Source: Kitasatospora sp. DSM 101779 (GTDB lineage: Bacteria; Actinomycetota; Actinomycetes; Streptomycetales; Streptomycetaceae). Taken from it: a stretch of DNA of 64,000 nucleotides. A program made the position numbers and the translations under genes. Shown here piece by piece: positions 39,264-48,482 of this stretch. Within the stretch, counting starts at the first letter, position 1; every line of letters begins with the position of its first letter. The stretch covers positions 3,297,581-3,361,580 of the forward strand of contig NZ_JAHTIK010000001.1 of assembly GCF_025655475.1 (NCBI RefSeq). The letters are read 5' to 3'. The notes under the pieces were generated by a model that saw nothing but the letters and a program-made list of their open reading frames with translations, was not told the origin of the DNA and did not search any database.

Positions 39264-40769
39264 GTGAGCGACCTCCCCTTCGGATTCTCCGTCCCGCCCG
39301 AGGAGCCCGAGGACGGCAAGGGCAAGCAGGACGACCAGGGCGACGCCGCCGCCGAGGGCAAGGGCGGCCAGGGCGAGACCCCGCAGCAGCCCTTCGGCTT
39401 GGGCGCGGGCAACCCGCTCGGCGCGCTGTTCGGCATGGGCGGCGCCGGCGGCGACAACCCCTTCGGCGCGATGATGGGCAACCTCAACCCCAACGACCTC
39501 GGCGCGGCCTTCCAGCAGCTCGGCCAGATGCTGTCCTTCGACGGCGGCCCGGTGAACTGGGAGCTGGCGCAGAACATCGCCCGGCAGACGGTCGTCGCCG
39601 AGCCCGCCGAGGGCCGCAGCAAGGACCGCTCGGTCGGTGCGGCCGAGCGCAACGCGGTCGTCGAGGCCGTCCGCCTCGCCGAGCTGTGGCTGGACGCGGC
39701 CACCGAGTTCCCGTCCGGCTCGACCACCGCCGTGGCGTGGAGCCGCGCCGAGTGGATCGAGGCGACCCTGCCGGTCTGGAAGGACCTGGTCGACCCGGTC
39801 GCCGAGCGGGTCGGCAACGCCATGGGCGGCGTGCTGCCGCCGGAGATGCAGGCCATGGCCGGCCCGCTGATGGGCGTCATGCGCTCGATGGGCGGTGCCA
39901 TGTTCGGCACCCAGATCGGCCAGGCGCTGGGCGCGCTCGCCGCCGAGGTGGTCGGCTCGACCGACGTCGGCCTGCCGCTCGCGCCGTCCGGCAAGGCCGC
40001 GCTGCTGCCGCAGAACATCGCCGAGTTCGGCGAGGGCCTGAGCGTGCCGGCCGACGAGGTGCGGCTGTACCTCGCCCTGCGCGAGGCCGCCCACCAGCGC
40101 CTGTTCGCACACGTGCCGTGGCTGCGGGCGCACCTGTTCGGCGCGGTCGAGGCGTACGCGCGCGGCATCAAGGTCGACACCTCGCGGATGGAGGAGCTGG
40201 TCGGCCAGCTCGACCCGACCAACCCGGAGGCGCTCCAGGAGGCGCTGGCCGGCGGTCTGCTGCAGCCCGAGGACACCCCCGAGCAGAAGGCCGCGCTGGC
40301 CCGGCTGGAGACGGCGCTCGCGCTGGTCGAGGGCTGGGTGGACGCGGTGGTGCACGCCGCGGCCCAGCCGCACCTGCCGCAGGCCGCGGCGCTCCGCGAG
40401 ACGCTGCGCCGCCGCCGGGCCACCGGCGGCCCGGCCGAGCAGACCTTCGCCACCCTGGTCGGCCTGGAGCTGCGCCCGCGCCGGCTGCGGGACGCCTCCC
40501 GGCTGTGGGCCTCGCTCGCCGACGCCCGCGGCATCGAGGGCCGCGACGCCCTCTGGGAGCACCCGGACATGCTGCCGACCGCCGCCGACCTGGACGACCC
40601 GGACGGGTTCGTGCACCGCGCGGAGGAGGGCGGCATCGACTTCGACGCGCTCGACAAGCTGCTCGGCGACGCCGCCCGCGGCGAGGACAAGCCCGGCTCG
40701 GCGAGCACCGGCGGCCCCGAGGGCACCGCGGGCACCGACAACGACGAGGACGAGGACGGCGGCAAGTGA
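39264..40769 (+). CDS. DUF2342 family protein (annotated as zinc-dependent metalloprotease)
   Basis: A 501-residue protein. The first ~95 residues are a Gly/Gln/Asp-rich low-complexity segment with FGLGAGNPLGALFGMGG; the DUF2342 domain (about 95-450) contains MGVMRSMGGAMFGTQIGQALG, LREAAHQRLFAHVPWLR and a long helical region. The family is usually labelled zinc-dependent metalloprotease, but no classical HExxH is visible; H277 in REAAHQRLF is the conserved His. Actinobacteria-specific. GTG 39264 has GAGGA upstream. Overlaps the Nudix gene by 4 bp (GTGA). Confidence 0.88.
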   Translation: MSDLPFGFSVPPEEPEDGKGKQDDQGDAAAEGKGGQGETPQQPFGLGAGNPLGALFGMGGAGGDNPFGAMMGNLNPNDLGAAFQQLGQMLSFDGGPVNWELAQNIARQTVVAEPAEGRSKDRSVGAAERNAVVEAVRLAELWLDAATEFPSGSTTAVAWSRAEWIEATLPVWKDLVDPVAERVGNAMGGVLPPEMQAMAGPLMGVMRSMGGAMFGTQIGQALGALAAEVVGSTDVGLPLAPSGKAALLPQNIAEFGEGLSVPADEVRLYLALREAAHQRLFAHVPWLRAHLFGAVEAYARGIKVDTSRMEELVGQLDPTNPEALQEALAGGLLQPEDTPEQKAALARLETALALVEGWVDAVVHAAAQPHLPQAAALRETLRRRRATGGPAEQTFATLVGLELRPRRLRDASRLWASLADARGIEGRDALWEHPDMLPTAADLDDPDGFVHRAEEGGIDFDALDKLLGDAARGEDKPGSASTGGPEGTAGTDNDEDEDGGK

Positions 40770-41335
40770 GCGACGCCCTGCACCAGGACGCCGTCCGTAC
40801 CCTGCAGGACTGGAAGACCGCCGACCCCGGCCAGGACCAGCTGCGGCTCGACTACCTGGACCACCTGGCCGGCCACTCCGACGGGCTGATGCGGGCCTGC
40901 CTGCCCGCCCACATCACCGCCAGCGCGGTGGTGGTGGACCCGGCCGCCGGCCGGGTGCTGCTGACCCTGCATCCGAAGGTCGGCCGCTGGCTGCAGATGG
41001 GCGGCCACTGCGAGCCCGGTGACGACACGTTGGCGGCCGCCGCGCTGCGCGAGGCCACCGAGGAGTCCGGCATCGCGGGGCTGTCCCTGCTCACCGGCGT
41101 CGACGGGCTGCCGGTGCCGGTGAAGCTCGACCGGCACCAGGTGCGCTGCGCCGGCAAGGACAGGCCGGAGAACACCCACCTCGACGTGCAGTACGTGGCC
41201 GTCGCCCCGCCCGGGGCGCAGGAGCTGATCAGCGAGGAGTCGCTGGACCTGCGCTGGTTCGGCTTCGACGAGCTGCCCGAGCTGAGTGACGACTCGGTGC
41301 GCACCCTGGTCGGCATCGCCCGCGCCCTGGTCTGA
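40766..41335 (+). CDS. Nudix hydrolase
   Basis: A 189-residue Nudix protein, translationally coupled to DUF2342. The Nudix box reads GGHCEPGDDTLAAAALREATEESG, with spacing G-x5-E-x7-REATEESG and the metal-binding glutamates in place. It carries an N-terminal helical extension (about 1-45). Substrate unknown; nucleoside-diphosphate derivatives are typical. Confidence 0.9.
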   Translation: MSDALHQDAVRTLQDWKTADPGQDQLRLDYLDHLAGHSDGLMRACLPAHITASAVVVDPAAGRVLLTLHPKVGRWLQMGGHCEPGDDTLAAAALREATEESGIAGLSLLTGVDGLPVPVKLDRHQVRCAGKDRPENTHLDVQYVAVAPPGAQELISEESLDLRWFGFDELPELSDDSVRTLVGIARALV

Positions 41336-41357
41336 TCGGCCCGGTCCGCACACGACA

Positions 41358-41394
41358 GCCCGCCCCCGCGCCCGACGGCGCACCGGGGGCGGGC
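41358..41394. terminator. Bidirectional terminator, Nudix / AIM24 operon
   Basis: A perfect 11-bp stem (GCCCGCCCCCG and complement) around a 15-base loop, between the convergent Nudix and AIM24 genes. Confidence 0.75.
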
Positions 41395-41403
41395 CCTCTC
41401 GTC

Positions 41404-42117
41404 TCAGCCGCGCGGCACGCGCTGCGGCGGCAGCAGCTCGCTGGGCTGCACGATCACGAAGCCGCGGCCGGTGAAGGCCAGCTCCCAGCCCTCGGTCGCG
41501 GTGCCGCGCCGGCGCCAGGCCTCGGTGTTGGTGCTCTGCGCCTGCAGCTGCACCTCCAGGCCGGAGGACCAGCCGACCACCGCGTCGGCGTCGCCGTAGA
41601 CGTAGCTGCCGGGTTCGACCGGCATCACCAGCGGGCGGCCGGAGGTCATCAGCACCAGGCCGCCGGTGCCGGAGACCTCCAGGCAGCGGCTGCCGACGCC
41701 GGCGATCCGGTCGCCGTTCTCGATCGCGACGGTGTGCCAGTCCAGGGTGGTGTCGAGGGCCAGCACGTAGCTGTTGGTGACGACCAGGCGCTCCTGGCTC
41801 AGCTGCAGGACGTGCAGGTGCTGGGCCAGGTTGGCCAGGTAGACCGTGCCGGTGCCGGAGCAGCGCATCAGGTCGAGCGCGCCGGCGTCGCGGTGCCGGT
41901 TGCCGGCGTTGCCGCCGCCGTTGCGGTTGCCACGGCGGTTCCCGGCGGGCGGCGTCCAGCCGGTGAAGTCCACCTTGCCGACGTGGGCGACCATGGCGCC
42001 GGTACGGGCGAGCACCTCGGACCGGCCGTCCAGGGTGACCCGCAGCAGCTGCGGGTTCTGCAGCGCGAAGCGGTCGGTGCCGGTGCCGGCGGTGTGCGCC
42101 AGGAGGGGGCTCTGCAC
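41404..42117 (-). CDS. AIM24-family protein (third gene of TerD-AIM24 operon)
   Basis: A 237-residue beta-helical AIM24-family protein. The family signature is LLRVTLDGRSEVLARTGAMVAHVGKVDF at the start, VYLANLAQHLHVLQL in the middle and RGFVIVQPSE at the C-terminus. A Gly/Asn/Arg insert (NRRGNRNGGGNAGNRHR) near residues 60-77 looks like a disordered loop. AIM24 is named after a yeast mitochondrial protein; bacterial members have no firm role. GTG 42117 has GAGGAG 6 bp upstream; 22 bp after the middle gene. Confidence 0.85.
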   Translation of the reverse strand: MQSPLLAHTAGTGTDRFALQNPQLLRVTLDGRSEVLARTGAMVAHVGKVDFTGWTPPAGNRRGNRNGGGNAGNRHRDAGALDLMRCSGTGTVYLANLAQHLHVLQLSQERLVVTNSYVLALDTTLDWHTVAIENGDRIAGVGSRCLEVSGTGGLVLMTSGRPLVMPVEPGSYVYGDADAVVGWSSGLEVQLQAQSTNTEAWRRRGTATEGWELAFTGRGFVIVQPSELLPPQRVPRG

Positions 42118-42139
42118 GGGGGCTCCTCGAACTCGGTTC

Positions 42140-42832
42140 TCAGCCGCGGATCTTGAGACGGTCGCCGGTGTCCTCGCTGGGCTGCACCACGACGAAGCCG
42201 TGGCCCCGGAACCCGAGCTGCAGCGCCTCGCCGCTGCCGCGGCCGATCAGCGAGCCGACCTTGACCGTGCGGCGGGTGCGCACCTCCAGGCCACCGGTCC
42301 ACGCGACGAGCGCGTCCGGGTCGACGAAGGTCTCGGTCTCCGAGCAGTCCAGCACCGCAGGCACGCCGCGGGAAGTGACGGAGACCCAGCCGCTGCCCGT
42401 CACGGTGACGTTGTAGAGGCCGGTGCCGGCCAGCAGGGCCGGGCCGCGGACCTTCTCCACGGTGCAGCCCAGAGTGGCGTCCATGGCCAGCAGGTGGGAG
42501 CCGTTCACGGACAGCGACTCCTCGGCGAGCTGCAGGTTGAGCACGTCGGCGCCGAGGTCGGCGAGGTAGAGCGTGCCGTCCCCGGCCCACCGCAGCAGCG
42601 GGCTGCGCTCGCCGGACGCCCACTCGCCGAGCGCCCTCCGCAGCGACTGCGGCACCGGCTCGTACTGCAGGAAGCCGTCGTAGGCCACCATCGCGCCGGC
42701 CTTGGCGTAGACGTCGGAGGCGGACGTCAGCGCCACCCGGCACATGGCGGTGCCGTGGTTGCTCATCCGCGCGCCGGTGTCGGCGGCCCGGTACGCGTCG
42801 AGCCCGCCCCCGGAGAGGAACTGTGCCTGCAT
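42140..42832 (-). CDS. AIM24-family protein (second gene of TerD-AIM24 operon)
   Basis: A 230-residue AIM24-family protein paralogous to its neighbours: DVYAKAGAMVAYDGFLQYE, TLYLADLGADVLNLQLAEESL, and GHGFVVVQPSE. ATG 42832 has AGGAGG 5 bp upstream and is 15 bp after the TerD-AIM24 stop. Three different AIM24 domains in one operon suggest a heteromeric assembly. Confidence 0.85.
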   Translation of the reverse strand: MQAQFLSGGGLDAYRAADTGARMSNHGTAMCRVALTSASDVYAKAGAMVAYDGFLQYEPVPQSLRRALGEWASGERSPLLRWAGDGTLYLADLGADVLNLQLAEESLSVNGSHLLAMDATLGCTVEKVRGPALLAGTGLYNVTVTGSGWVSVTSRGVPAVLDCSETETFVDPDALVAWTGGLEVRTRRTVKVGSLIGRGSGEALQLGFRGHGFVVVQPSEDTGDRLKIRG

Positions 42833-42847
42833 GACTCCTCCTGGACC

Positions 42848-44338
42848 TCAGACCTCGAACGGCTGGACGACGACGAAGTTCCCCGGGGCGCCGCGGAACT
42901 GCAGGCTGTACGACTCCGCCGCGTGCCCGGCGTAGGCGGAACGGCGGATCCGCACCGGCGCGGTGGTGATCACCTGCGAGCCGCGCGACCAGGCGACCAG
43001 CGCCTGCACGTCCACGTACGTCTCCGGGGCCGGAGTGACCGGTAGCACCACCGGGGTGCCGTTGGTCTTCACCACCACCGTTCCGTGGCCGCTGAACTGC
43101 AGGGTGAAGAAGCCGCCGTTCGGCAGGCCCTCGCCCTCGATCCGGCGCACCTCGTGCTCCAGGCCGGCCTCGAAGGCCAGCACCCGGTCCGAGCCGACGC
43201 AGAAGGAGTCACCCTCCAGCCGCACCACGTGCAGGTCGCAGGCCTCGTCCGCGAGGAACACCTGCCCCTCGCCGGTGATCCGCATCAGCTTCAGCTGCTG
43301 GCCCGTCAGATTGCCGACCAGCGTGCGCAGCATGCCGGAGCTCTCGTGCGCGAAGTCGGCCTTGCCCTGGTAGGCGACCATGCTGCCCTGCAGGGCCAGC
43401 ACGTCCTTGCCCTTGGACAGGCTGACCCGGACGAGCTTGTCGTTCTGCTTCACCCAGTCCTGGCCCGCCGCGGCGTCGGTGTACTTGGTCAGCTCCGCGT
43501 ACTTGGTCAGGGAGATGCGCACCCCGGCGGACTGCGGCGGGACGGCAGGCTGGGGCGGCACGGCGGCCTGGGGCGGCACGGCCGGCGCAAACGGAACGGC
43601 CTCCGGCGGCACGGGCACGGCGAGCAGGGTCGCGTCCGGGTGGGGCAGCGGCGCGGCGGGGACGGGGACGGGAACGGGGACGGCGAGCAGGGTCGCATCG
43701 GGGGACTGCTGCGGCGCGGGGACGGCGGCGGACGGGGTCTGCTGCGGTACCGGGGCGGCCGGGGCAGGGGCCGCCGGTGCGGCGGGAGTGGCCGGTGCGG
43801 GCTCGTCCTCCAGAGCCTCGCCGCCGAAGTTCTCCAGCAGGGCGCGCAGCCCACCGTCGAAGCCCTGCCCGACCGCGGCGAACCGCCACTCGCCACCCCG
43901 GCGGTAGACGTCCGCCAGCATCACGGCCCGCTCGGTGGAGAACTCGGCGCCGGTGAAGCTGTACCGGCCGACCTCGGTGCCGCCGGCCACGATCCGCACG
44001 TAGCCGGAGGCCACCTGGGACATCTGTCCGTCGCCGTCGATGGTGGCGGTGAGCGCCAGCTTGTGGACGGCCTCCGGGACGGCGGGCAGCGCGACCGCGA
44101 AGGACTCCGAGTCGCCGCCCTGTGCGCCCAGCAGCCGGATCGACTGCTCGGGGCTGGCCGGCTGGTTGAAGAAGACGAAGTAGCGGTCGTCGCTCAGCCG
44201 TTCGTCGGCGTCCAGGCCGAAGCAGCTGATGTCGAAGGTCAGCCCCGGCGCCGTGATGTGCACCCCGAGGTAGAGCTCGGTGCTCGGGGTCAGCTCGCTG
44301 ATCCGGACACGGGACGCCTTGACGAGTTCCCTGGACAT
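42848..44338 (-). CDS. TerD-AIM24 fusion protein
   Basis: A 496-residue two-domain protein. Residues 1-185 are a TerD domain (LYLGVHITAPGLTFDISCFGLDADERLSDDRYFVFFNQPASPE, EFSTERAVMLADVYRRGGEWRFAAVGQGFDGGL) with the acidic calcium-binding residues of tellurite-resistance proteins. Residues 190-290 are a Pro/Ala linker in which the DATLLAVPVP segment occurs twice. Residues 295-496 are an AIM24 domain (LVRVSLSKGKDVLALQGSMVAYQGKADF, GNFVVVQPFEV). First gene of a three-gene operon. TerD proteins form calcium-dependent stress assemblies; fusing one to AIM24 suggests a tethered complex. The fusion is real on sequence; function is inferred. Confidence 0.88.
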   Translation of the reverse strand: MSRELVKASRVRISELTPSTELYLGVHITAPGLTFDISCFGLDADERLSDDRYFVFFNQPASPEQSIRLLGAQGGDSESFAVALPAVPEAVHKLALTATIDGDGQMSQVASGYVRIVAGGTEVGRYSFTGAEFSTERAVMLADVYRRGGEWRFAAVGQGFDGGLRALLENFGGEALEDEPAPATPAAPAAPAPAAPVPQQTPSAAVPAPQQSPDATLLAVPVPVPVPAAPLPHPDATLLAVPVPPEAVPFAPAVPPQAAVPPQPAVPPQSAGVRISLTKYAELTKYTDAAAGQDWVKQNDKLVRVSLSKGKDVLALQGSMVAYQGKADFAHESSGMLRTLVGNLTGQQLKLMRITGEGQVFLADEACDLHVVRLEGDSFCVGSDRVLAFEAGLEHEVRRIEGEGLPNGGFFTLQFSGHGTVVVKTNGTPVVLPVTPAPETYVDVQALVAWSRGSQVITTAPVRIRRSAYAGHAAESYSLQFRGAPGNFVVVQPFEV

Positions 44339-44436
44339 GGCGCGGACCGGCCCCCTCCCGTACGGCTGCTGATCCCGGAGACCCTATCCCAGCGGCCCGC
44401 CCCCGCAGCAGCCCCGACCACAGCGGTTTCTCCGTC

Positions 44437-45198
44437 TCAGTCGCAGCCGTCGGTGTCCGCGGTTCCGCCCGTGGGCGGCCCGTCGGCGGCGGCGTCCCCG
44501 GCGTCTCCGCCGCGGGCGCCCGGCAGGTGCGGCAGCCGGCCTGCGGCGGCCACCCCCTCCAGGTAGCCACGGGCGCGCTCGGTGCGCGGGTAGGCCTCCA
44601 GCAGCGCCCAGAACCGCGGGCCGTGGTCGGCCACCAGCAGGTGCGCCAGCTCGTGCAGCAGCACGTAGTCGACCACGTAGCCGGGCATGCCCTGCAGCCG
44701 GTGGGAGAGCCGGATCGAGCCCTCGGCCGGAGTGCAGGAGCCCCAGCGGGAGTTCTGGTTGGTGACCCAGCGGACCCGGCGCGGCACCGCCCGGCCGTCC
44801 AGGTACGCCGCCGACAGCTCGCGGGCGCGGGCCTCCAGCGCGTCGTCGCCGAGGGTGCGGCGGCTCTCCTGGCGGGCCAGTCGCTCGACCATCTGGGAGA
44901 CCCAGCGCTGCTCCTCGGCCTTCGACATCCGGGCCGGGATCAGCACGACGGTGCGGTCGCCCTCGCGGTACGCGGACACGGTACGGCTGCGACGGGTGCT
45001 GCGGCGGACCTCGACGTTCGACCGGTCGACCGCCGCCGGGGCTGATGGGGCGGACGGCTCCGGGGCCGGCCGCTGCTGCGCGGTGGTCTCCGCCTGCTGG
45101 GCGCGCCCGCGCGCGCCGCCGGCCGCGGCACCGTAACCGGAAGCGGCCCGGGTACGCCGGCGCGGCGAGGGGGATCGGGTGTCCGGTTCGGCCGCCAT
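44437..45198 (-). CDS. YgjP-type (SprT-like) zinc metallopeptidase
   Basis: A 253-residue protein with a disordered Ala/Arg/Pro N-terminus (1-65) and a YgjP/DUF45 metallopeptidase domain (about 75-225). The signature NSRWGSCTPAEGSIRLS (149-165), zinc motif HELAH (H182, E183, H186) and third ligand H192 (DHGPRFW) are intact. Family members are putative zinc peptidases with no defined substrate. ATG 45198 is chosen because residues before it are encoded by spacer sequence. Divergent from the E1-like gene, 303 bp away. Confidence 0.85.
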   Translation of the reverse strand: MAAEPDTRSPSPRRRTRAASGYGAAAGGARGRAQQAETTAQQRPAPEPSAPSAPAAVDRSNVEVRRSTRRSRTVSAYREGDRTVVLIPARMSKAEEQRWVSQMVERLARQESRRTLGDDALEARARELSAAYLDGRAVPRRVRWVTNQNSRWGSCTPAEGSIRLSHRLQGMPGYVVDYVLLHELAHLLVADHGPRFWALLEAYPRTERARGYLEGVAAAGRLPHLPGARGGDAGDAAADGPPTGGTADTDGCD

Positions 45199-45412
45199 GA
45201 CACCCGACGTTACCCGTCGGGTCCGACGGATCGGCGCCACCGGGGCCGCCGCCCGGGTGCAGGGTCGGCACACGCCGGGCGAACAGAAGTTGTCCACAGG
45301 GTGTACGCACAGATGGTCGTACAAGCCGACCGGGCCTGTGGACAACGCGTTTCACGGGCCAGGCCGGCCTCGGGCATCCTGCCGTCACCGGGATCACCCG
45401 ACTGGCCCCGCC

Positions 45413-45472
45413 CGCACCTGTCCGCACCTGTCCGCACCCGGCCATGCCCGTCCATGCCCGTCCATGCCCGAT
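45413..45472. repeat. Six consecutive 10-bp repeats upstream of the E1-like gene
   Basis: CGCACCTGTC, CGCACCTGTC, CGCACCCGGC, CATGCCCGTC, CATGCCCGTC, CATGCCCGAT are exactly head to tail. They lie 30 bp before ATG 45502, between the two divergent genes, and leave only GGAGTGA as ribosome binding site. Phase is one helical turn per unit. The remainder of 45199-45412 shows no other feature. Confidence 0.9.
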
Positions 45473-45501
45473 CCGCCCCACGCCGCACCGGAGTGACGCC
45501 C

Positions 45502-46638
45502 ATGCGCCCGATGCTCAAACCCGGACTCGCCCGCCTCCGGCGGGACGAGCTGACCCTGCAGTTCGGCACCGTCCGCCGGTACGCCCGGCTGGTCGAGCAG
45601 GCCGACGCCACCGTCACGGCCTTCCTCGACCTCGTCGACGGCACCCGCGACACCGCCGAACTGATCACGGCCGGCGAGCGGCTCGGCCTCGACCCCGGTC
45701 TGGGCCGGGCACTGCTCGACTCGTTGGCCGGCGGCGAGCTGCTGGACGACGCCGAGGCCCTCCGGCAGGCCCTGGGCGGCTTCCCGCAGCCGCAGCGGGA
45801 GCTGCTCGGGCCGGATGCGGCCGGGCTCTCGCTCGTCCATCCGGAGCCGGGCGAGGCCGCGGAGGTGCTCGCCGCCCGCCGGCTGGCCCGGGTGGAGGTC
45901 CGGGGTGCCGGGCGGGTCGGGGCGGCGCTGGCCGCCGTCCTGGCCGCGGGCGGCATCGGCACCGTGACGGTGGCCGACGGCGGCCGGGTCGACCCCGGGG
46001 ACTGCTCCCCCGCCGGGATCCCGTCCACCGACGTCGGACGGCTGCGCAGCACCGCGGCGCGCGAGGCCGTGCTCCGGGCCGCCGGGGCCGCTCCGGCCGC
46101 GCGGCACCGTCCCGCCCCGGTGGCGGCCGGGCCGCCCGCCCTGGTCGTCCTCGCGCCGCGGGACGGCGCCGGCGCCTGGACGGGCCGTGCCGTCGAGGCG
46201 CACGAGCTGGCCCGGGCCGGCGTGCCGCACCTGTACGTGGGTGTGCTGGAGCACCTGGGTGTGGTCGGGCCGCTGGTGGTGCCCGGGGCGTCCGCCTGCG
46301 GCAGCTGCGCCGCGCTCACCCGCGCCGACGAGGACGAGGGCTGGCCCGGGCTGCTCGCGCAGCTGGAGGGCGCCGGTTTGGACGGCCGCCCGGCCTGCGA
46401 CAGCGCACTGGCCACTGCGGTCGCCGGGCTGGCGGCGCTGCACGCTCAGCTCTTCCTGGACGGTGTGCTGCCGCCGAGCGTGGACGGCTGGTGCGAGCTC
46501 TCCGCCGCGGACGGGATGGTGCGGCGGCTGCGACTTCCGGCCCACCCCTCCTGCGGCTGCCAGTGGCCGGGCGGACGGCCGCCGCTGGCCGTCCCCGGGG
46601 CGGGCGCCTGCTCCGGTACCGGGCGGGGTGGCACGTGA
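45502..46638 (+). CDS. E1/ThiF-like protein with possible RiPP-recognition-like N-terminus
   Basis: A 378-residue protein. Residues 1-85 resemble a winged-helix RRE/PqqD-like domain (LTLQFGTVRRYARLVEQADA, FLDLVDGTRDTAELI). Residues 125-260 are an E1-like Rossmann domain with GAGRVG (135-140) and VADGGRVDPGD followed by DVGRLRS, where E1 enzymes have a Lys; adenylation may be reduced. Two Cys pairs (C266/C269 SACGSC; C351/C353 PSCGC) likely hold zinc. This layout resembles the cyclodehydratase partner (TOMM leader-peptide-binding protein) of azoline biosynthesis, but no YcaO or precursor gene is nearby. ATG 45502 has GGAGTGA upstream; the preceding frame is repeat DNA. Confidence 0.75.
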   Translation: MRPMLKPGLARLRRDELTLQFGTVRRYARLVEQADATVTAFLDLVDGTRDTAELITAGERLGLDPGLGRALLDSLAGGELLDDAEALRQALGGFPQPQRELLGPDAAGLSLVHPEPGEAAEVLAARRLARVEVRGAGRVGAALAAVLAAGGIGTVTVADGGRVDPGDCSPAGIPSTDVGRLRSTAAREAVLRAAGAAPAARHRPAPVAAGPPALVVLAPRDGAGAWTGRAVEAHELARAGVPHLYVGVLEHLGVVGPLVVPGASACGSCAALTRADEDEGWPGLLAQLEGAGLDGRPACDSALATAVAGLAALHAQLFLDGVLPPSVDGWCELSAADGMVRRLRLPAHPSCGCQWPGGRPPLAVPGAGACSGTGRGGT

Positions 46639-46684
46639 CCGCACCGGTGCCGACCGCCCCCTGGCCGCCCGGTTAGACCGGACT

Positions 46685-46780
46685 CCCGTGCCCCGAACCT
46701 CCCGTGCACCGGGTGTCCCGTGCCCCGAACCTCCCGTGCACCGAACCTCCCGTGCACCGAACCTCCCGTGCACCGGGTGT
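46685..46780. repeat. Six 16-bp tandem repeats in A-B-A-C-C-B order
   Basis: Six perfectly phased 16-bp units share CCCGTGCxCCG: A = CCCGTGCCCCGAACCT, B = CCCGTGCACCGGGTGT, C = CCCGTGCACCGAACCT. C differs from A at one base and combines the front of B with the end of A, implying recombination between variants. They begin 46 bp after the E1-like stop. The remaining gap to 47153 shows no gene; GGGAGG before 47154 is the next ribosome binding site. Confidence 0.95.
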
Positions 46781-47153
46781 CCCGTACGGCCGGGCCGCCT
46801 TGCATCGATCGGCCCTCGTGCTGCCGGGGCCTCGTCCGGTCAGTACCTGCGCTCTGGCGAGGTCCCCCGTTCGGGCGGCCGGGCACTCGGGCCGGCTGAC
46901 GGGAACCTCCCTCGGGCGGGTGAACGCAGGCGGTCGGGGTCGGCGAGGACCCCGCCGATGGGCCGCGGGGGTGAATTCCACCGGGCGCGCCTCCTCCTCC
47001 GCTTGCGCGCCCGAATACCAGTCCGGATGATTCGCCGGATCCAGGGCGGCGAGCGGGCACAATGGCGTGGTGACCACTGCCCGGCGGCAGGCCGTGTCCG
47101 GTGCTCCGCGCCGGGCCGCCCCGGCGGGCGCGATCCGACTGGGAGGCCCCGGG

Positions 47154-48482
47154 GTGAGCGATCTTCCGCGCAAGGCCGTGACGCGGACGGCGCGACTGGC
47201 GGCGCTGCCGCTCGGCTTCGCCACCCGTGCCACGCTCGGGCTGGGCAAGCGACTCGGCGGCCGGCCGGCCGAGGAGGTCACCGCCGAGCTCCAGCAGCGC
47301 ACGGCCGAGCAGCTCTTCTCGACGCTCGGTCAGCTCAAGGGCGGCGCGATGAAGTTCGGCCAGGCGCTGTCCGTCTTCGAGTCGGCCCTGCCGGAGGACG
47401 TGGCGGGCCCCTACCGGGCCGCGCTGACGAAGCTTCAGGACTCGGCCCCGGCGATGCCCGCGGCCACCGTGCACCGGGTGATGGCGGAGCAGGTCGGTGC
47501 GGACTGGCGGGAGAGGTTCCGCAGTTTCGACGACCGGCCGGCCGCCGCGGCGTCCATCGGGCAGGTGCACCGTGCGGTCTGGCACGACGGACGGCGGGTC
47601 GCCGTCAAGGTGCAGTACCCGGGCGCCGGGGACGCCCTGCTGAGCGACCTCGGCCAGTTGGCCCGGCTCGCGCGGGTGCTGGGGCCGCTGATCCCCGGGA
47701 TGGACATGAAGCCGCTGATCGCCGAGATGCGGGCCCGGGTCACGGAGGAGCTGGACTACGGCCTGGAGGCGGAGGCCCAGCGGGCCCACGCGGTCGAGTT
47801 CGCCGAGGACCGGGACATCGCCGTGCCGCAGGTCGTCGACCGGTCCGGGCAGGTGCTGGTCACCGAGTGGATGGACGGCACGCCGCTGGCCCGGGTGATC
47901 GCCTCGGGCTCGCGGGAGGAGCGGGACCGGGCCGGCCAGCTGCTGGCCCGCTTCCTGTTCGCCGGGCCGACCCGCACCGGCCTGCTGCACGCCGATCCGC
48001 ACCCGGGCAACTTCCGGCTGCTGGGCGACGACGGCCCGGTGGAGGAGTGGCGGCTCGGCGTCCTCGACTTCGGCACGGTGGACCGGCTGCCCGGCGGGCT
48101 GCCGGAGCCGATCGGCGCCTCGCTGCGGCTCGCGCTGGCCGGCGAGGCAGGCGCCGTCTACGACCTGCTCCGGCAGGAGGGCTTCGTCCGGCCCACCATC
48201 ACGCTGGACCCGGACGCGGTGCTGGACTACCTGCTGCCGATCATCGAGCCCACCCGGGTCGAGGAGTTCACCTTCACCCGGGACTGGATGCGCGCACAGG
48301 CGGCCCGGATCGCCGACCCCCGTTCGCCCGCCTACAACCTCGGCAAGCAGCTCAACCTGCCGCCCTCGTACCTGCTGATCCACCGGGTGACGCTGAGCAC
48401 GATCGGCGTGCTCTGCCAGCTCGGCGCGACCGTGCGGATGCACGAGGAACTGACCACCTGGCTGCCGGGCTTCACCGACTAA
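47154..48482 (+). CDS. ABC1/UbiB (ADCK)-family atypical kinase
   Basis: A 442-residue ADCK/UbiB-family protein, an atypical kinase/ATPase linked to isoprenoid quinone metabolism in other bacteria. Diagnostic: K67-x-G-Q70 (MKFGQALS), the Ala-rich loop AAASIGQVH, VAVKVQYPG with the invariant Lys K152, LHADPHPGNF and LDFGTV. All catalytic elements are intact. GTG 47154 with GGGAGG 7 bp upstream is much better than the GTG 87 bp earlier in the same frame. It ends just before a strong terminator. Confidence 0.9.
   Translation: MSDLPRKAVTRTARLAALPLGFATRATLGLGKRLGGRPAEEVTAELQQRTAEQLFSTLGQLKGGAMKFGQALSVFESALPEDVAGPYRAALTKLQDSAPAMPAATVHRVMAEQVGADWRERFRSFDDRPAAAASIGQVHRAVWHDGRRVAVKVQYPGAGDALLSDLGQLARLARVLGPLIPGMDMKPLIAEMRARVTEELDYGLEAEAQRAHAVEFAEDRDIAVPQVVDRSGQVLVTEWMDGTPLARVIASGSREERDRAGQLLARFLFAGPTRTGLLHADPHPGNFRLLGDDGPVEEWRLGVLDFGTVDRLPGGLPEPIGASLRLALAGEAGAVYDLLRQEGFVRPTITLDPDAVLDYLLPIIEPTRVEEFTFTRDWMRAQAARIADPRSPAYNLGKQLNLPPSYLLIHRVTLSTIGVLCQLGATVRMHEELTTWLPGFTD

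Follow-up and report, generated by a model that had tools for sequence, protein, structure and literature searches.

AIM24 genes that adjoin TerD genes were described by Anantharaman, Iyer and Aravind in 2012, and an interaction of the two proteins was proposed (cited in PMC5822837). In the Group I ter clusters, TerD and an AIM24 protein (TIGR00266) are encoded side by side. Both folds are known from bacteria. 1yox (PA3696) and 1pg6 (SpyM3_0169) are solved AIM24/DUF124 structures of single proteins, the former with six chains in the entry, a count that need not be its biological oligomer. For TerD there are the structures 3ibz from S. coelicolor and 2kxt from Klebsiella. AIM24 proteins with scaffold-like roles are further known from fungi, namely yeast Aim24 and EOP-1/IDC4 (PMC3975624, PMC13075794, PMC6162560). 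Fungal EOP-1 self-associates and carries a Pro/Gln-rich disordered arm in front of its AIM24 domain.

The window analysed here, a stretch of 64,000 nucleotides from Kitasatospora sp. DSM 101779, encodes TerD and AIM24 in a different manner. A reading of this DNA from its sequence alone had pointed out a TerD-linker-AIM24 gene followed closely by two further AIM24 genes, and we could confirm this row on the minus strand. The first gene (A1, 44338-42848, ATG start) encodes 496 aa, the second (A2, 42832-42140, ATG start) 230 aa and the third (A3, 42117-41404, GTG start) 237 aa; the gaps of 15 bp (42833-42847) and 22 bp (42118-42139) both contain an RBS-like GGAGGAG or GAGGAG. With dN/dS values of 0.07-0.15 against the nearest relative, the three genes as a whole, and likewise the TerD part and the AIM24 part taken separately, are under purifying selection, and since the orthologues are in addition syntenic we regard the open reading frames as real genes. 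Unlike the Group I clusters, TerD is here fused to AIM24, three AIM24 paralogues are present, TerC is not nearby and the hallmark motif of TerD is lost. The sequence-only reading had considered the locus a candidate undescribed system. This does not apply to the TerD/AIM24 neighbourhood as such, which PMC5822837 traces to 2012, but we did not find the three-paralogue cassette, with its motif-less TerD and its all-or-none inheritance, in the literature searched, nor the linker motif or the Nocardia fusion described below; the 2012 paper may already list TerD-AIM24 fusions of this kind.

According to Pfam, A1 begins with a TerD domain (PF02342, aa 1-171, E = 1.3e-38, 132.7 bits at a cut-off of 25.3) and ends with an AIM24 domain (PF01987, aa 299-493, 4.3e-29), and a Pro/Ala-rich disordered linker (about aa 172-285) lies between them. 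A2 (1e-31) and A3 (1e-23) are also members of the AIM24 family, all three matches being above the curated cut-off, while the scores of A1, A2 and A3 against the equivalog TIGR00266 (21.9, 44.8 and 24.4 bits) stay below its cut-off of 96.6. The AlphaFold model of A1 shows two folded parts joined by a linker which is mostly around or below a pLDDT of 50. Foldseek matches the TerD part with 3ibz and 2kxt and the AIM24 part with 1pg6 and 1yox. The model of A2 (pLDDT 77) likewise has the fold of 1yox and 1pg6, with a Z of 17.6 over 182-192 residues, and given these two solved proteins the claim that AIM24 domains are structurally unexplored in bacteria was overstated. In contrast to A1, neither of the two structures has a TerD domain or a disordered arm; yeast Aim24 and fungal EOP-1, which act at the mitochondrial inner membrane or in fungal cell fusion, also differ from A1 in having no TerD. 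No membrane-span-like stretch was found in any of the three proteins, and PHROGs returned nothing specific for them. The top Foldseek match of the TerD part is 9a6r (a GlpD-SCP2 model). This suggests a possible lead toward a respiratory-enzyme partner, an idea that is not mentioned in two likely source papers of 9a6r.

The TerD part of A1 shares the fold of 3ibz and 2kxt at about 30% identity, yet it lacks the acidic loop that both structures retain. The loop motif GDNxTG..DDE, which we take to be the calcium loop of TerD, is absent from A1 and from every fusion checked but is present in six of seven other TerD regions of the same genome that were compared. In A1 a shortened LLGAQGGDSE stands in place of TGDNxTGEGxGDDE, and FDISCF replaces FDLDAS, so that the second aspartate is missing. 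One could nevertheless suppose that the cassette is a calcium-responsive stress or tellurite resistance system of the ter type with a calcium-binding TerD domain. The TerD fold is clear, and D36, D76 and D101 are invariant in the TerD parts of the A1 type, which leaves room for weak or altered metal binding. Calcium binding is published for Klebsiella TerD, a different TerD protein, and in S. coelicolor SCO2368 has an effect on calcium homeostasis (both cited in PMC8123226). However, besides the missing loop and aspartate in the fusions tested, the TerC genes of this genome are located at 2.67 and 5.69 Mb, thus more than 0.6 Mb from the triad at 3.34 Mb; the scanned neighbours of the triad are unrelated genes, and where the cassette is relocated no ter genes turned up among the flanking proteins that were scanned. 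Because the hallmark motif is missing and TerC is not nearby, we find no support for the calcium-binding TerD and the TerC link that had been anticipated, and consider a ter-type system improbable. TerD matches in the phosphoproteome of S. rimosus were also looked at but could not be mapped to the A1 gene.

A scan with one genome per species gave 412 related stretches, of which 79 loci from Streptomyces, Kitasatospora, Streptacidiphilus, Actinacidiphila, Embleya and Frankia were kept. TerD and AIM24 lie in one frame at 59 of these loci and in different frames at four, probably due to sequencing errors in the repeat-rich linker; at the other 16 only the TerD part is seen since the contig ends there. 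A2 was found at the 63 loci where A1 is not truncated, and an A3 orthologue occupies the same place at 62 of them; at the remaining one the contig stops after A2. A survey of 395 genomes of the class, with A2 in place of the full 496-aa fusion as query, gave a strong A2 match in 38 of the 39 genomes from the large sister genus, which is presumably Streptomyces, and in about 30 genomes from Frankia's family. Apart from copies cut at the ends of the DNA that was fetched, the fused triad is present at the sister-genus loci and in five genera of Frankiaceae, each represented by one genome. The fusion is therefore not an isolated feature of one strain, and the search for further TerD-AIM24 fusions was successful both for triads and, singly, in Nocardia. 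At the 15 loci that were examined in other families, AIM24 stands as a single gene, in two cases with an N-terminal DUF2510 and in one with TerD. The two DUF2510-AIM24 fusions (L165:5558-6415 and L169:5298-6329, from other Actinomycetes) show another N-terminal head. An AIM24-like protein with 40% identity to A2 is also encoded by a phage from human faeces whose record is unannotated (MT835541.1:9803-10414).

Within Kitasatospora the cassette is retained or lost as a whole. An A2 orthologue is present in 15 of 70 genomes and all 15 also have A1 and A3, as read from five AIM24 matches which correspond to the triad and two members of a second triad (see below). Besides the window there are 14 Kitasatospora loci, of which seven have the YgjP/ThiF and Zincin genes as neighbours and seven are placed among unrelated genes. 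The latter code for a LacI regulator, glycoside hydrolases, an ABC permease, a metallo-beta-lactamase fold, an alanine dehydrogenase-like protein, a berberine-type oxidase, a MerR/TipAS regulator and a beta-lactamase. In ten genomes the canonical site is empty, with the YgjP and NUDIX genes adjoining at about 45-155 bp between the aligned ends, and four of these genomes carry the cassette elsewhere. Empty canonical sites and relocated copies with unrelated flanks delimit the unit to three genes and rule out the upstream YgjP-like gene as a member; judging from these junctions, the triad is a discrete movable cassette with clean boundaries.

In the window this YgjP-like metallopeptidase gene (44437-45345, minus strand) and the downstream Zincin_2 gene (39264-40769, plus strand) were assigned by Pfam scan, and the convergent gene, also downstream, which ends at 41335 on the plus strand was called NUDIX-like for its NUDIX-box-like sequence. 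The cassette probably carries its own leader (44339..44436, minus strand). An upstream comparison revealed a -10-like GGGATAGGGTC in it, and a -10-like TARGGTC is kept before A1 of the relocated copies, in most of them about 50 bp upstream; we infer that the element is the cassette promoter. After A3 follows a strong hairpin (41340..41403, minus strand, -44.8 kcal/mol, z -3.1), likely a terminator common to A3 and the convergent NUDIX-like gene. Further upstream of the triad, a ThiF-like protein (45301-46638, plus strand) matches the TOMM leader-binding model TIGR03882 with a score under the cut-off, and an ABC1 atypical kinase (47067-48482, plus strand) has a strong match to the model of the macrolide-binding ATPase MABP-1, which at 459.8 bits is still below the cut-off of 800. 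Between these two genes lies a tandem array (46683-46785) with about three to six copies of a 16/32-bp unit.

A cassette that relocates and is patchy within Kitasatospora could also serve in anti-phage defence, and a link between ter systems and resistance to phages has been drawn (PMC8123226). Yet none of the three proteins matches a PADLOC model, defence genes are absent from the scanned flanks of the relocated copies and, unlike typical defence genes, the cassette is near-universal and syntenic in the sister genus. In our view a role in defence is very improbable.

In the tree, A1, A2 and A3 form separate supported clades, each of which has members from both Streptomycetaceae and Frankiaceae; A1 and A3 are sister clades. 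From this topology the three are old paralogues, which either predate the split of the families or travelled together. A single loss of one of them was not seen in the genomes examined. The genome of DSM 101779 contains a second AIM24 triad, here called B, about 178 kb from the first (L015:6523-8878 on the same contig). Its members have 212, 216 and 355 aa, and the third, B3, has a Pro/Gln-rich N-terminal arm which resembles the arm of EOP-1, as does the Pro/Ala-rich linker of A1. According to PMC6162560 such disordered arms are absent from bacterial AIM24 proteins; this does not hold for B3. Two members of triad B occur in nearly all Kitasatospora genomes with any match (59 of 70), and the third was present in all ten loci read. 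The neighbours of triad B look like MarR, MeaB and an acetyl-CoA acetyltransferase, names taken from sequence. We also considered triad A as a block duplication of triad B and rejected it, as the tree separates A1-A3 from B1-B3 (the B branches being long).

In Nocardia a single gene encodes a TerD-linker-AIM24 fusion, and at least 21 of the 40 genomes examined from this genus show it in one frame. Its AIM24 domain falls among solo proteins in the tree, and its TerD domain groups with another TerD of the Kitasatospora genome, apart from the A1 type. The Nocardia fusion likely has an independent origin, which falls short of proof because both branches are long. The Kitasatospora TerD with which it groups (contig C1, 5698093-5698620) has no GDNxTG either, and further matches to TerD and TerC lie within a few kb of it.

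The linker of A1 contains DATLLAVPVP twice, at aa 214-223 and 235-244 (positions 43699-43670 and 43636-43607, within the stretch 43607..43699 of the minus strand), as had been noticed from the sequence. Among the orthologues the stretch between TerD and AIM24 measures 37 to 222 residues, and in this otherwise drifting region APT-hydrophobic..AP appears to be a conserved short motif. Of the 58 linkers, 49 contain the pattern A[APQHS]T[LIVM] (mean of 3.2 and maximum of 8 in shuffles) and 43 the stricter Hx[AP][APHQ]T[LIVM] (mean of 0.14 in shuffles), a contrast that is descriptive because the patterns were picked after inspection of the sequences and the sequences are related. In three further linkers QPT replaces APT. 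DATLLAVPVP of the window resembles the family motif but is no exact match to either pattern. Some Nocardia linkers show RTDPTVVAQP or NDPTIVAP, with seven motifs in six of 21 linkers (shuffle mean 0.14, for a pattern chosen post hoc); the linker of locus L181 is that of N. farcinica. A docking or phosphorylation site common to the linkers of triad A and of Nocardia is a hypothesis which these motifs bring up.

Genes that are kept, lost and moved together suggest a single mixed protein assembly, and a dedicated TerD-AIM24 assembly can fairly be inferred. We propose, with a probability of about 60%, that A1, A2 and A3 form one obligate hetero-oligomeric AIM24 scaffold with tethered TerD arms, in which the contact, the partner and the role are presumed. 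The core would consist of the three non-interchangeable AIM24 domains, most likely as a trimer or a multiple of a trimer. On its long flexible Pro/Ala linker the TerD domain of A1 would not sense calcium but serve as an arm that binds a partner, and the APT-hydrophobic..AP motif could be a second place for docking, perhaps through a phosphothreonine. As a soluble particle the scaffold might then gather stress- or envelope-related proteins, in line with the roles supposed for AIM24 and TerD proteins elsewhere. We favour this scaffold because of the all-or-none retention in the 15 A2-bearing Kitasatospora genomes, the whole units at the sister-genus and Frankiaceae loci, the clean three-gene boundaries with unrelated flanks at relocated copies, and the preservation of all three old paralogues. 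Further reasons are the loss of the TerD motif in every fusion checked together with the conservation of the linker motif, the second triad with an arm in the same genome and the lack of a membrane-span-like stretch.

Co-inheritance can, however, also come about in a common pathway without contact, and the cassette is missing from 55 of the 70 Kitasatospora genomes, so its function is dispensable there. The three proteins could thus be separate homo-oligomers which act in one pathway and are inherited together without physical contact. Solo AIM24 proteins in many Actinomycetes and the one-gene fusions in Nocardia indicate that AIM24 proteins can work without two partners. On the other hand, strict triads occur in two separate AIM24 groups, A and B, and no paralogue of triad A was lost singly in the genomes examined. 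We therefore regard separate homo-oligomers as unlikely. Going beyond the single cassette, we put forward only tentatively that the actinobacterial AIM24 triads might be a new class of hetero-oligomeric cytosolic scaffold, built on a core of three fixed paralogues with one disordered-arm subunit and assembled at least twice; the arm would carry a docking motif and an exchangeable TerD head in triad A and no head in triad B.

AIM24 proteins occur in all domains of life and matter for the organisation of the mitochondrial inner membrane and for fungal cell fusion. A compact and movable bacterial AIM24 triad, in a genetically tractable group with natural gain and loss, offers a direct route to what an AIM24 assembly holds together, and triad A in addition a route to the role of TerD domains once the canonical acidic motif is gone.
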